64,000 bases of DNA, taken from positions 1 to 64,000 of the forward strand of contig JAICGZ010000002.1 in assembly GCA_025922875.1 (NCBI GenBank). The letters are read 5' to 3'. Each line of letters starts with the position of its first letter. Positions within the stretch are counted from its first letter, which is position 1. The DNA comes from Pyrinomonadaceae bacterium. GTDB taxonomy: Bacteria; Acidobacteriota; Blastocatellia; Pyrinomonadales; Pyrinomonadaceae. Under the pieces are notes generated by a model that was not told the origin of the DNA, ran no database searches, and saw only the letters and a list, made by a program, of their open reading frames with translations. Below, in pieces: positions 2-17,510 of this stretch. A program made the position numbers and the translations under genes.

Positions 2-2470
2 GTCCTTTCAGAACTGCGCCGCTTTGATGAAGCAGAAGAAGCCTGCGAGGAATCGTTGACAATTGAACGAAGGCTGGCGGCTACTCAGCCGCAAGCCTAT
101 GAAGCCGCATTAGCGATGACTCTCGACCAGCTTGGCATTATCCGCAGAAGCCTGGACCGGCTGGACGAAGCTGAGGAGGCACACCACGAGTCCTTAACAA
201 TTCGCAGAAGATTGGCGGTGGACCATCCCCAAGCTTATGAACGGGATTTGGCCATGACGCTGGGCAATTGGTCGAATGTCCTTTCTGACCTAGGTCGGAT
301 TGAAGAGGCAGAAGCTGCGAGTTGGGAAGCGCTGGAGATCAGGCGGCGACTGGCGTTGGCACACCCGCAGGTCTACGCGTTCGAAATAGCCGGGACACTC
401 AACAATCTCGGAATTATGCTCAACGAACAAAGGCGCCTGGACGAAGCCAAAGAGACATACCTGGAAGCGATAGCAATCAGTCGCAACCTCGCACGAGCAC
501 TGCCTGAAGTCTACGAACCAGACTTGGCCAGAACGTTGAACAATCTGGGTGACGTGCTTCGTGATTTGGGTTCCTTCAAGGAAGCGGAAGAAACCTATCT
601 TGAATCGCTGAACCTTTCACGCCTACACGATCTGCTTGACAATCGATCTCGTGTGCTCTTCGCACTTGGTCAAATGTTGTTCGAACGGGAAAACTGGGCC
701 GAAGCGGCTGAGAGACTCACGGAAGCTGTCGAGCAGGTGGAGCATCTTAGAGCTGAAGTGTTGAGCCTGGATCGCAGAATAAAAATCTTGACCCGAAACA
801 GTAAGATTTACGAACTGTTGCTGGTTTGTCTGATGAGACTCGGACGCTACCAGAAAGCGATGGAACTCGCCGAACAAGGGAAGAGCCGAACTCTCATAGA
901 CCTGTTGGCACTGCGAGATTTGCGGCCGAAGAATGTGCCTCCCGCATTGATGCGCGAGTATGAACAGGTGCTTTTTGAAGCCCGAACCTTGGAGAACTTG
1001 CTACAAGGCGGCATCTTACAAAATCAGGGCGACGATACAACACCACCTGAAGATAGGGCAGCATGGCGACGTAGCCAGTTAGAGGAAGTAAAACAAGACT
1101 TGTATAAGGCTAACAGCCGTCTTCGAGAGCTAGTATCAGACATTCGGAATGGCGATCCAGATTTCCTGCCGCACGCCAAACCACTATCTTTTGCGGAAAT
1201 CAAAACGCTGGCTCAAGATGCCAAGTCGACATTGTTGTTATTCCGTGTGACTGATGCCGGCAGTTTTGGCTTCCTTGTCTTTCCTGACGGTGAAACCGAC
1301 ATCGTTCAAGCGCCGGGGTTCACCACAAATATGCTCGACGAGATGCTGGTCAAGTTCGTCGGCGAAAAACGAGTGGACGGCTGGGTGGGCCGCTACTACA
1401 ACTTTCAAAATGCTTTGTATCAAGCACAGCAAACCAAAACCAAGGAACATGAAGAAACAGCGAAGCAGGCGTGGCAAAGTTGGCTGGACACGATGGATGA
1501 AACACTCCGCAATGTCTACGAACGCTTGTTGAGTCTCGCGCATTTAAAGTTGAAAATGAAGCAGCATGAGACGGGCGAACGGCTTGACCGCGTCGTCATC
1601 GTTCCCAATCGTGGTCTGGCAATCTTGCCGTTGCACGCATGCTGGTGGAATGACGAGGGTAAACGCCGTTACCTGCTTGACGATTATGCGATTACCTATG
1701 CGCCTAGCCTCTCGGTTTTCAAACGCTGCCTCGAACGGGAACGGGCCGGACGCGCAAAGGACACACTCCTGGGCATTGTCAATCCAAAGCCGCCTGGAAA
1801 TCTTGTGTTTTCAGAATGGGAGTGTAAAGAGATCGAACGATTGATGGGAAGCGAGCGATGCCTCTTGCTGTGGGGGGAGAGAGCTACCAACAGCGAAATG
1901 AAACTTGCGATCCCAGGGCGACATTGGTTGCACTTTTCCTGTCACGGACAATATCGGCTTGACGCTCCCCTTGAGTCGTCTCTGTCGCTCGCACAGGGAG
2001 ACAAGTTAACTCTGACAGAGATTCTTGAGACGCTCGATTTGCAGGACACCTGGTTGATCGTATTGTCCGCGTGTGAGACCGGGTTAGTAGATTTCCGGGA
2101 GATAGCTGACGAACACTATGGACTACCGTTGGGATTCCTGTTTGCTGGGGCGCCAACGGTTTGGGGGACTTTGTGGACAGTCAACGACTTAACCACGGCC
2201 CTGCTAATGAGGAAAGCTTACGAGAACTTGAAGAACCGAATCGCGACCAAGCCCGATGCGCTCCGAGACGCCCAACGATGGCTGCGAGATGCCAAAGCCC
2301 AGGAACTGCTTGGATTGATTTCAAGTAAACAAGAGATCATGAACCACAATCACATGGTCCGGACTGATCTTTCACCATTGCCGCATGGCGTTGCCGACGG
2401 CTACGGTTCGCAATCGTCTCCCTACAGTCATCCATACTATTGGGCCGGTATGTACTGCGTAGGCACTTGA
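2..2470 (+). CDS. TPR-repeat CHAT-domain protein (caspase-like protease fold), 5'-truncated by window edge
   Basis: Degenerate TPR units (EAEEAHHESLTIRRRLAVDHPQAYERDLAMTLGNWSNVL...) followed by a CHAT domain with HFSCHGQYRLDAPLESSL and LSACETGL motifs (putative His/Cys dyad). The frame stays open and TPR-like upstream of the TTG at 56 to the window edge (VLSELRRFDEAEEACEESLT). Confidence 0.88.
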   Translation, partial: VLSELRRFDEAEEACEESLTIERRLAATQPQAYEAALAMTLDQLGIIRRSLDRLDEAEEAHHESLTIRRRLAVDHPQAYERDLAMTLGNWSNVLSDLGRIEEAEAASWEALEIRRRLALAHPQVYAFEIAGTLNNLGIMLNEQRRLDEAKETYLEAIAISRNLARALPEVYEPDLARTLNNLGDVLRDLGSFKEAEETYLESLNLSRLHDLLDNRSRVLFALGQMLFERENWAEAAERLTEAVEQVEHLRAEVLSLDRRIKILTRNSKIYELLLVCLMRLGRYQKAMELAEQGKSRTLIDLLALRDLRPKNVPPALMREYEQVLFEARTLENLLQGGILQNQGDDTTPPEDRAAWRRSQLEEVKQDLYKANSRLRELVSDIRNGDPDFLPHAKPLSFAEIKTLAQDAKSTLLLFRVTDAGSFGFLVFPDGETDIVQAPGFTTNMLDEMLVKFVGEKRVDGWVGRYYNFQNALYQAQQTKTKEHEETAKQAWQSWLDTMDETLRNVYERLLSLAHLKLKMKQHETGERLDRVVIVPNRGLAILPLHACWWNDEGKRRYLLDDYAITYAPSLSVFKRCLERERAGRAKDTLLGIVNPKPPGNLVFSEWECKEIERLMGSERCLLLWGERATNSEMKLAIPGRHWLHFSCHGQYRLDAPLESSLSLAQGDKLTLTEILETLDLQDTWLIVLSACETGLVDFREIADEHYGLPLGFLFAGAPTVWGTLWTVNDLTTALLMRKAYENLKNRIATKPDALRDAQRWLRDAKAQELLGLISSKQEIMNHNHMVRTDLSPLPHGVADGYGSQSSPYSHPYYWAGMYCVGT

Positions 2471-10223: not shown

Positions 10224-10563
10224 GCCCCTGTAGCTCAGCGGATAGAGCATCTGCCTTGTTGGAGCCTTGATGGGGAATGCGATCTGGAACCCATTGAGTG
10301 GACGACCCTGTATGCGGGGACGCCCTTAGAGCCTCTGGTACTTCGATCGAGAGTGGTCCAAGTAACAACCCATGAGGATTGGGTAATCCGCAGGAAACCT
10401 ATTTCGACTTCGCCGTAGGGATCCTCAGAGACTATACGGGTCGGGACTGCGACGTCCAAGATATAGTCCAGCCAGCAACCCCAGCTTTGACGGGCGGTCA
10501 GGGAAAGCCTGATGCTGGAAGCTAAGCAGAGGGCCGCAGGTTCGAGTCCTGCCGGGGGCACCA
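10224..10563 (+). tRNA. tRNA-Arg(UCU), exons 10224-10257 and 10522-10563, interrupted by group I intron
   Basis: Joined exons give GCCCCTGTAGCTCAGCGGATAGAGCATCTGCCTT|CTAAGCAGAGGGCCGCAGGTTCGAGTCCTGCCGGGGGCACCA: complete cloverleaf, anticodon TCT split after T34, encoded CCA. Confidence 0.9.
10258..10521 (+). ncRNA. Group I self-splicing intron in tRNA-Arg anticodon loop (~264 nt, no homing endonuclease ORF)
   Basis: Core elements: P-like TGCGGGGACGCCC, Q GGTAATCCGCAGG, R TCAGAGACTATACGG, S AAGATATAGTCC (P7 pairing ACTATA/TATAGT), terminal omega-G at 10521, possible P1 CCUU|GUU with GAUGGGG giving U.G at the 5' splice site. Confidence 0.88.
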
Positions 10564-10578
10564 CGCACAATAGAATAT

Positions 10579-10656
10579 GGCGGCTATAGTTCAGTAGGTT
10601 AGAACGCTTGATTGTGGATCAAGAGGTCGTGGGTTCGAGCCCCACTAGCCGCCCCA
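10579..10656 (+). tRNA. tRNA-His(GUG)
   Basis: GGCGGCTATAGTTCAGTAGGTTAGAACGCTTGATTGTGGATCAAGAGGTCGTGGGTTCGAGCCCCACTAGCCGCCCCA; G-1:C73 pair and GTG anticodon. Confidence 0.93.
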
Positions 10657-14439: not shown

Positions 14440-15270
14440 AAAATTAATCAGGCGATACACGCCCGGTGCTAATCTTTGAGCAAATCCTTCGTCGACCAGT
14501 CCCCAATTACCCAATCCAGCTTCAGGCGAACTTAGACCAGTCACACGCGCCAGTTCCCCTCGCAAAGTCATGCCAGCCCCAACCAGATACGACCGTGCAA
14601 TCTCCTTTAAAGCCTCTTCCCGGTCCACACGCTGCTTCAATTGCTCCGGAAAACGAGCTTCCGGAATGGACCAAATGTAAGTAAACGTTGGCTCATACAA
14701 GACGTCACTCGGAATAATCTTCAGCGTCTTCTGTAGCTGAGTCATGGCTTTATCGAAACGAGCTCGATCAGGGATGCCGCTGGCCTGGCGCAGATCACGC
14801 GTCGCCATTTCCCACTCACGCCGCATGATCTTGAGGATGGTCTGCGCGTCGTCCGAAAGAATCTTTTTCTCCATTCTCTGCGGAACGCCCCACAAAGTGT
14901 TGAAGAATGGAAGCAAACGCACCGCAATGAACGTAGAACGACCGCGAAGCAGTTTCCCATAAAAACACTTACCACGGCGCATCACATCGTCCTTGATGCT
15001 CCACGCCAAACGGCTCTCCGGATCCTTCTGTACATTGCGCGGCATGTGCGCGTCTCGACGCCCGCAAACCGCAACGTAAAGCGACGGTCCAGGGCGGCGA
15101 GAGTCGGTTAGGGCTTCGCAGAATCCTACCTCCTCGATAAAACGCTCAGCGCTGTAAACATCCTCAACACGGTTTTCAGGATCGCGCCGCCACATGCGGT
15201 CGCGATGGACCTCAATCTCTTCCGGCAACATGCGGCGGATTCTATCAAAGTGATTTGAGCCGGCAGTCAA
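14437..15270 (-). CDS. Winged-helix protein, possibly AlkZ/YcaQ-related
   Basis: Overall character and ...KEIARSYLVGAGMTLRGELARVTGLS...; family assignment is tentative. Confidence 0.5.
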   Translation of the reverse strand: MTAGSNHFDRIRRMLPEEIEVHRDRMWRRDPENRVEDVYSAERFIEEVGFCEALTDSRRPGPSLYVAVCGRRDAHMPRNVQKDPESRLAWSIKDDVMRRGKCFYGKLLRGRSTFIAVRLLPFFNTLWGVPQRMEKKILSDDAQTILKIMRREWEMATRDLRQASGIPDRARFDKAMTQLQKTLKIIPSDVLYEPTFTYIWSIPEARFPEQLKQRVDREEALKEIARSYLVGAGMTLRGELARVTGLSSPEAGLGNWGLVDEGFAQRLAPGVYRLINF

Positions 15271-15449
15271 GGGCAGTCAATCTGAGCAAATCGGTCAAGC
15301 CCTCCACTTGCTGCCATTTTCCAGAAAATCACCGTAAGTCTTTACTGCACAAGGATCTAAGGATCTGTCACAAATTTGGCACGGTCAGTGCAGAGCGGAT
15401 GCCGCCAGTTGTTTGTTCAGACTTGGCAAAACCTCAAAAGGTTACAGAG

Positions 15450-17510
15450 ATGACGAAGGTGACATCGATGCATAAAACAAAACGCTTCCTGGTGCTGGCC
15501 CTGCTGGCGAGCCTCACACTGGGACCAACCCTTTCGAGCGGACTTATGGCCGCTCAGGCGAAGAGCAAAGGCTCGTCGCACGGGAAGGCCCAGCAGCCAA
15601 TCAAGGTCGCTTCAGACCTCAGCAATCTGCTCTCTAACAAGAGCGGCGAAGCCCTGGTCAAAGTAATCCTCCAGCTCAACCAAAAGCCAAGCGGTCAACT
15701 GAATGCATTATTGTCAGCAAACGGCGTCAAGATCCGGAAACACTTCAACAACCTCAACTCTCTTGCCCTCGAATTACCCGGCCGCGTGGTCGATGCTTTG
15801 TCAAATTTCTCAGAGGTCTCATTTGTTTCATTGGACAGCGAAGTTCGGACACTCGGCGGTCACGTTGCTCATACCACCGGCGCGGACAATGTGCGCTCAA
15901 TGGCTACGGATGGAGCGTTGGATGGAGACGGAATCGGTATCGCGATTGTCGACTCCGGCATCTACGGCGAACACACTTCCTTTATCGACACCACAAACGG
16001 TCAGTCACGAATCGTCGTAAATCGGGACTTCACCGGCGAAGGCCGGACCGATGATCCATACGGTCACGGAACTCACGTCGCAGCGGCAGCAGCCGGAAAC
16101 GGAGTCGTTGCGAGAGGTGAATATATCGGTATTGCGCCACGAGCGAAGATCATCAACCTCCGTGTTTTGAATTCCAAAGGCATCGGCTCAGTATCAAACG
16201 TGCTCGGCGCGTTTGACTGGTTGATGGCGAATGCTTCCACGTACAACGTGCGCGTCGTGAATCTCAGCATCGGCATGCCGGCAATCAATTCCTACCTGTA
16301 CGATCCGCTGTGCAATGCTGCACGCATGCTCGTGGACCGCGGGATCGTAGTTGTAGCCGCGGCCGGTAACAACGGAAAGACCAGCGACGGTCAAAAGATT
16401 TACGGCCAGATTCATTCACCCGGTAATGAGCCGTCCGTTATGACTGTAGGCGCCGTCGATACTCGCGGAACTGATCAAAGAGGTGACGATACGATTGCCA
16501 CCTACAGTTCGCGTGGACCGACGCGCAGTTTCTGGACCGACAATTACGGTATCAACCACTACGACAACCTGATCAAACCGGAGATCTCAGCACCAGGTAA
16601 CAAGACGATCTTCGCGCAGGCGCCAAACAATTATCTTCTTTCACAGAATCCCTCGCTGGACGCCGGCGTCAGCAACAGCCAAACTCGCAGGCAGATGATC
16701 CTGAGCGGCACCTCAATGGCTGCACCACTGGTCGCCGGCACAGCGGCTCTCTTGTTCGAAGCCAATCCAACTCTTACCCCCAACTTGATGAAGTCGCTCT
16801 TGATGTACACAGCGCAACAGCTTCCTAACTACAACATGTTCGAGCAGGGAGCGGGTGAACTGAACATCGATGGCGCGACTCGTCTCGCCAGGCTTGTTAG
16901 CACCACTATCGACAGCTCAACCGAACTCGGCGCTCCGCTGCTGACTGGACCAGCTCCTGCTCCGCAAACAAGCATCACCGTACCTGGCGGTGTTTTCACG
17001 TTCCAGTGGTCGCAGGGCATCATCGTGGGCCAGACCTACGCGACGGGCACGGCGCTGATTAATCAGTATCAACGAGTCTATGCGAAGGGCGTGTTGCTCG
17101 GCGACGGAGTCCTCCTCGGTGACGGCGTTCTGATCAGTGATGGTGTTTTGGTTAGCGATGGCGTGCTCGTCAGTGATGGTGTGTTAGTCAGCGACTCCAC
17201 GATGTTTTCAACCGGCGTCATTGTCGGTGAAAGCATCCTCATAAGTAACGGCACCATGATCGGCGCCGGTCAATTGTTCTGTTCAATTTCTGACCTGCTT
17301 GGAAATGGTGTGCTCGTCGGCGACGGTGTGCTTGTCGGTGACGGCGTGCTCGTCGGCGATGGTGTTTTGGTTGGTGACGGTGTACTGGTCGGCGACGGCG
17401 TACTCGTCGGCGATGCGCTTCTCGTGGCGTTCAACGCTCTGACGAATGGCGACCCAACCACTTCCATGGCAATTGTGCCCGACGACTACACTGACTATCT
17501 GGGTTACTAA
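15450..17510 (+). CDS. S8 family (subtilisin-like) secreted serine peptidase with C-terminal hexapeptide repeats
   Basis: Catalytic motifs IVDSGIYG (Asp), GHGTHVAAAAAGNG (His), SGTSMAAPLVAGTAALL (Ser); inhibitor-like propeptide; C-terminal VLVGDG repeats. Start at 15450 or 15468 rather than 15255. Confidence 0.93.
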   Translation: MTKVTSMHKTKRFLVLALLASLTLGPTLSSGLMAAQAKSKGSSHGKAQQPIKVASDLSNLLSNKSGEALVKVILQLNQKPSGQLNALLSANGVKIRKHFNNLNSLALELPGRVVDALSNFSEVSFVSLDSEVRTLGGHVAHTTGADNVRSMATDGALDGDGIGIAIVDSGIYGEHTSFIDTTNGQSRIVVNRDFTGEGRTDDPYGHGTHVAAAAAGNGVVARGEYIGIAPRAKIINLRVLNSKGIGSVSNVLGAFDWLMANASTYNVRVVNLSIGMPAINSYLYDPLCNAARMLVDRGIVVVAAAGNNGKTSDGQKIYGQIHSPGNEPSVMTVGAVDTRGTDQRGDDTIATYSSRGPTRSFWTDNYGINHYDNLIKPEISAPGNKTIFAQAPNNYLLSQNPSLDAGVSNSQTRRQMILSGTSMAAPLVAGTAALLFEANPTLTPNLMKSLLMYTAQQLPNYNMFEQGAGELNIDGATRLARLVSTTIDSSTELGAPLLTGPAPAPQTSITVPGGVFTFQWSQGIIVGQTYATGTALINQYQRVYAKGVLLGDGVLLGDGVLISDGVLVSDGVLVSDGVLVSDSTMFSTGVIVGESILISNGTMIGAGQLFCSISDLLGNGVLVGDGVLVGDGVLVGDGVLVGDGVLVGDGVLVGDALLVAFNALTNGDPTTSMAIVPDDYTDYLGY
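17091..17426 (+). repeat. 18-nt coding tandem repeat encoding VLVGDG/VLVSDG hexapeptides
   Basis: About 17 units (VLLGDG VLLGDG VLISDG VLVSDG x2 ... VLVGDG x6) with synonymous codon drift between units. Confidence 0.92.

Follow-up and report, generated by a model that had tools for sequence, protein, structure and literature searches.

The window (the whole stretch of DNA that was analysed, 64,000 nt of contig JAICGZ010000002.1 from a Pyrinomonadaceae bacterium) contains a tRNA-Arg(UCU) gene that is split after U34 by an insert without an open reading frame (ORF). The coordinates of the exons, the insert and its predicted helices are provided in Table 1. When the two exons are joined, a complete tRNA-Arg with the anticodon UCU results, and the cut is unambiguous, as the end bases permit no shift of the junction. 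The sequence-only reading, made earlier from the letters of the window, had placed here a tRNA-Arg(UCU) gene with an encoded CCA, split after U34 by an ORF-less insert of roughly 264 nt that ends in G; its coordinates proved to be exact, as did the length of the insert, and its placement of the DNA in Acidobacteriota was likewise right. Its warning that standard annotation may overlook the tRNA was also borne out, given that both ARAGORN and the Rfam tRNA model (at gathering level) missed the split gene when the locus was searched. The sole tRNA called at the locus by either method was a tRNA-His (10580-10656), and the joined exons of relatives were called tRNA-Arg(tct) by ARAGORN. Further along the window, an ORF for a subtilisin-like protease (15255-17510, plus strand) carries repeated GVLVGDGVLVGDG units in its C-terminal part.

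Table 1. Split tRNA-Arg(UCU) gene and predicted helices of its intron (window coordinates; changes counted in 14 introns)
Feature	Position	Strand	Remarks
tRNA-Arg(UCU) 5' exon, nt 1-34	10224-10257	+	Ends CUGCCUU; last base U34
ORF-less intron, predicted group I, 264 nt	10258-10521	+	G at first and last position; RF00028, covariation, empty-site orthologues
P1, guide GAG	10262-10264	+	Pairs with C32-U33-U34 (10255-10257); U34.G wobble at 5' splice site
P2 hairpin	10266-10274/10290-10298	+	3 pairs changed on both sides; 97.6% of cells paired
P3	10304-10308/10438-10442	+	2 compensated pairs; 100% paired
P4	10313-10318/10387-10392	+	Invariant
P5	10323-10325/10381-10383	+	Invariant
Distal P5 stems	10332-10338/10370-10377; 10340-10345/10358-10363	+	6 pairs changed on both sides
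P6	10393-10395/10422-10424	+	
P6a	10398-10402/10415-10419	+	3 compensated pairs
P7 (guanosine-binding helix, pseudoknotted with P3)	10430-10434/10464-10468	+	Invariant
P8	10444-10447/10454-10457	+	1 compensated pair
P9 with P9a and P9b branches	10472-10476/10514-10518	+	100% paired; P9a: 1 compensated pair
tRNA-Arg(UCU) 3' exon	10522-10563	+	Starts C35; CCA encoded

The Rfam group I model (RF00028, Intron_gpI) was matched over its full length at 10248-10484 with 30.4 bits (E = 6.5e-6 in a 551-nt search), and this was the only match in the 6.8-Mb genome (E = 1.9e-5 genome-wide). The covariance check put forward in the sequence-only reading therefore did return a match, yet one that falls under the curated cut-off of 50 bits. 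Introns of the window lineage scored 29-43 bits, and a match above the cut-off was found in none of the 19 genomes searched. By using a family-level search, 13 further full-length homologues (78-94% identity) were recovered. Ten of them belong to the same genus as the window (L013-L019, L021-L023), the remaining three come from genera elsewhere in the family (L020, L024, L025), and an additional homologue is cut by a contig end (L026). All 14 introns (window + 13) have an identical junction, a terminal G, and a length of 257-277 nt.

A P1-P9 structure of 74 pairs was drawn on an alignment of these 14 introns, and energy minimisation over the region was set aside, as it cannot represent the pseudoknotted core. 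Standard pairs make up 98.7% of the cells, a percentage that is biased upward because the structure was drawn with the same sequences in view. Compensatory changes are the stronger support for the fold: 16 pairs were changed on both sides versus 8.3 ± 1.6 in shuffled alignments (0 of 500 shuffles as good), and the signal was destroyed when the helix partners were slid. The compensations are located in P2 (where the covariation score was reached by 0/500 shuffles), P3, distal P5, P6a, P8, and P9a. Given that P1, P4, P7, and P9 are invariant in the 14 introns, they neither support nor oppose the fold. The group I core P3-P8 is present with P7 pseudoknotted on P3, and P10 pairing in the window lineage is weak only. 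The P, Q, R, and S strands quoted in the sequence-only reading are the strands of P4/P5 and P7, as it had claimed, and its assignment to group I is upheld by the genome-wide RF00028 match (30.4 bits against a cut-off of 50) together with the covarying fold. Compared by description, the layout and insertion site agree with subgroup IC3, which comprises tRNA introns.

The P1 helix proposed at first (CCUUGUU/GAUGGGG) had to be replaced, as it shows zero compensatory changes and is broken in several relatives. Its 3' strand, GAUGGGG (10269-10275), is the 5' side of P2 and pairs with CCCAUUGAG, with compensatory changes. The corrected P1 is CUU/GAG with U34.G10262, and C32-G, U33-A, and U34.G are invariant in 14/14 introns.

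In the proposed reaction, the two exon halves of the transcript would pair in the anticodon stem, and C32, U33, and U34 at the end of the 5' exon would pair with the guide GAG inside the intron to form P1, placing U34.G at the cut. For the Anabaena intron, such pairing of the exons was reported to be a requirement (Zaug 1993, a title cited in PMC3984707). A guanosine bound in P7 would attack after U34, and the freed U34 would attack after the terminal G10521 and be joined to C35, yielding tRNA-Arg(UCU). Archaeal tRNA introns often lie in the anticodon loop, as this insert does, and are removed by a bulge-helix-bulge endonuclease; that proteins of this kind, and not an RNA catalyst, remove the insert is extremely improbable, given the covarying P1-P9 fold of the group I type and the RF00028 match, and given that an intron of the archaeal kind is not expected to sit after U34 with a terminal G. 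The locus as a whole is very probably best explained by a group I intron that is spliced from the tRNA-Arg(UCU) transcript, and we infer that splicing would take place with or without protein help.

The window genome is a draft (93.5% complete, 542 contigs) in which no second canonical tRNA-Arg(UCU) gene was found, and AGA is in use (96 AGA and 74 AGG among 17,021 codons of long ORFs). Another intact UCU gene, which the sequence-only reading had named, together with no splicing of the locus, as counting against it, is thus missing in canonical form from the draft. Two intron-bearing relatives (G044 and G093) do carry one within a tRNA array, however, and splicing may therefore be dispensable in some genomes. 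A homologous array of 27 tRNA genes is located on contig C269 of the window genome (L042, 234-3862) and, unlike the arrays of G044 and G093, holds no canonical UCU tRNA. An attempt to prove by a fixed pattern that no intact copy exists was dropped, as the array UCU gene of G044 and G093 has a different anticodon arm. Within the C269 array, a tRNA-like sequence (~1745-1840, minus strand) adjoins a Met gene; it has a CTTCTAA loop (UCU) and a long variable arm but lacks a normal D-arm.

The intact array copies in the two relatives, and the homologous array in the window genome, would suit a decayed intron, in which the split gene no longer functions and its role is filled by a second tRNA-Arg(UCU). 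This is improbable, as conservation with compensatory changes extends genus-wide over both exons, the guide, the core, and the terminal G, which would not be expected of a dead gene, and as the UCU-loop sequence in the window-genome array is only tRNA-like. In addition, the intron is present in G100 (98% complete), where the Arg matches that were checked include no UCU. Counting the other way on the question of need, like the array copies of G044 and G093, are two genomes of the same genus, G089 and G091 (97-98% complete), in which the searches made recovered no UCU gene. The spliced tRNA-Arg(UCU) is likely needed in the window genome.

Intron-less tRNA-Arg(UCU) genes followed by tRNA-His were found in the same neighbourhood in sister genera (L045, L046), and in a phylum sample of 396 genomes the uninterrupted gene (one pattern) was detected in 188 and the intron signature in 6. 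One draft genome (G026) has both an intron-bearing (L024) and an intron-less (L046) tRNA-Arg(UCU) gene, possibly by bin contamination. Other genera of the family have a second intron type at the same site, which is either ~650 nt long, with an ORF that separates the Q strand from the R strand, or 218-237 nt long without one. Intron ORFs at L027, L036, and L044 are LAGLIDADG (PF00961), and those at L028 and L029 are PD-(D/E)XK (PF11645), with a broken frame in L029. In a tree of 137 intron cores (just 144 columns, with many open forks), the two types were recovered as separate supported groups (SH-aLRT 97 and 100). No homing endonuclease ORF was found in the window intron, nor in any of the 13 homologues closest to it. 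The window-lineage intron appears to have been inherited with its host gene, without an endonuclease, and the same-site relatives with endonuclease genes are probably mobile forms. Such relatives, and the occurrence of both occupied and empty sites within the family, could also be read as a window intron that is still an active mobile element in its genus, which would be compatible with splicing; we regard this as unlikely, as all 14 lineage introns are without an ORF and form one supported group, as expected from inheritance and loss.

A signature scan for AAGAKATRGTCCAGMC-N31-61-GCTAAGC returned at least 118 matches from GTDB genomes along with 16 from viral contigs, and the site is occupied in at least seven phyla (Pseudomonadota, Bacillota, Bacteroidota, Acidobacteriota, Chloroflexota, Campylobacterota, and Myxococcota). 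Among the matches listed, 126 of 134 parse as split tRNAs, and 126/126 are tRNA-Arg(UCU) with a terminal G, a uniformity that is partly by design because the pattern was built on tRNA-Arg(UCU) and its junction. The guide GGAGC is present in 125 of the 126 parsed introns among these matches; this and the complete tRNA are informative because they are absent from the search pattern. Fifteen viral split tRNA-Arg(UCU) genes were confirmed by a second parser, although the viral status of such contigs is predicted and host flanks may be among them (L292 falls with Bacillota). The window intron fits this group, being inserted after U34 of tRNA-Arg(UCU) with the guide GGAG and a terminal G joined to CUAAGC, and its lineage is one clade among the tRNA-Arg(UCU) U34 introns in the core tree. 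A PD-(D/E)XK-like motif was found in 32 of the 39 bacterial intron ORFs of at least 110 residues (among the matches listed), and those tested match PF11645; six viral intron ORFs are HNH-like, and the two tested match PF13392.

The sequence-only reading had called tRNA-Arg(UCU) a less familiar host, which was overstated given the introns at this site in many phyla and in Beggiatoaceae (PMC4853749). We consider it rather probable that the site following U34 in tRNA-Arg(UCU) serves as an intron hotspot across bacteria and in phages, at which one intron family has repeatedly swapped its endonuclease among three unrelated families (mostly PD-(D/E)XK in bacteria, but LAGLIDADG in certain Acidobacteriota, and HNH in phages), and that the window genus keeps a separate endonuclease-free lineage where a mobile lineage sits in sister genera.

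Group I introns were also observed in other tRNA genes of viral contigs (L220, L196, L235, L238, L234, L261, L244, and L268), with hosts, by anticodon loop, of Met CAU, Glu, Asp, Ser, His, and Leu; in L220, two split tRNAs lie ~1 kb apart. In a 2014 review, phage group I introns were described as confined to protein genes (PMC3984707). When viral contigs were scanned with a Q-strand pattern for a tRNA-Leu reference, most of the loci obtained showed no split tRNA, and none supplied a cyanobacterial reference. In a related genome, a group I intron candidate of 47.9 bits (L301, G026:C214:2712-2901) adjoins a tRNA 3' half starting CATAATCC and is possibly a second kind of intron-split tRNA. Five loci (L009, L349, L350, L352, and L357) were rejected as further split tRNAs, as they have tRNA-Lys-like 3' ends without a full gene; these isolated ends are probably marks of integrated elements.

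Because annotation drops the split tRNA, many genomes look as if they were without a tRNA reading AGA. The U34 set forms a natural homing series at a single tRNA site in bacteria and viral contigs, running from empty sites to introns that have an endonuclease, a broken one, or none, and it would lend itself to tests of how introns are spread by phages and by endonuclease swaps.

The window intron is of a known kind, as tRNA-Arg-TCT genes interrupted by putative group I introns were already reported in the Beggiatoaceae (Beggiatoa-type BOGUAY and Ca. Thiomargarita nelsonii; PMC4853749, citing MacGregor 2013). The host gene is the same and was likewise missed by annotation, and Gammaproteobacteria are among the hosts of the U34 intron in the signature scan. 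The Beggiatoaceae introns differ in belonging to another phylum, and their structure or type is absent from PMC4853749. The window intron represents a separate ORF-less lineage. Hosts listed in the open literature are tRNA-Leu(UAA), fMet, Arg(CCU), and Ile(CAU) (PMC5733544, PMC8450103, PMC7717549); the U34 intron group is wider than reported there, and further reports may exist. The alphaproteobacterial tRNA-Arg(CCU) intron (Agrobacterium, Bartonella BbgpI) is also a group I intron in an arginine tRNA that annotation misses, and BbgpI splices both in vivo and in vitro (PMC7717549). Its host has a CCU anticodon, and CCT direct repeats flank the intron, a junction different from that of the window intron. 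In a profile comparison, the PD-(D/E)XK endonucleases that related Arg(UCU) introns encode match PDB 2ost (E = 0.001), which is I-Ssp6803I, the endonuclease of the tRNA-fMet intron; that system has a tRNA-fMet host and an endonuclease, whereas the window intron lies in tRNA-Arg(UCU) and is without an ORF. The Anabaena tRNA-Leu intron is small, follows U34 after a 5' exon ending in CUU, and has a GAG guide with a 3-bp P1. In these features (site, CUU, size, and guide), the tRNA-Leu introns match the window intron, but they are carried by a different host tRNA.
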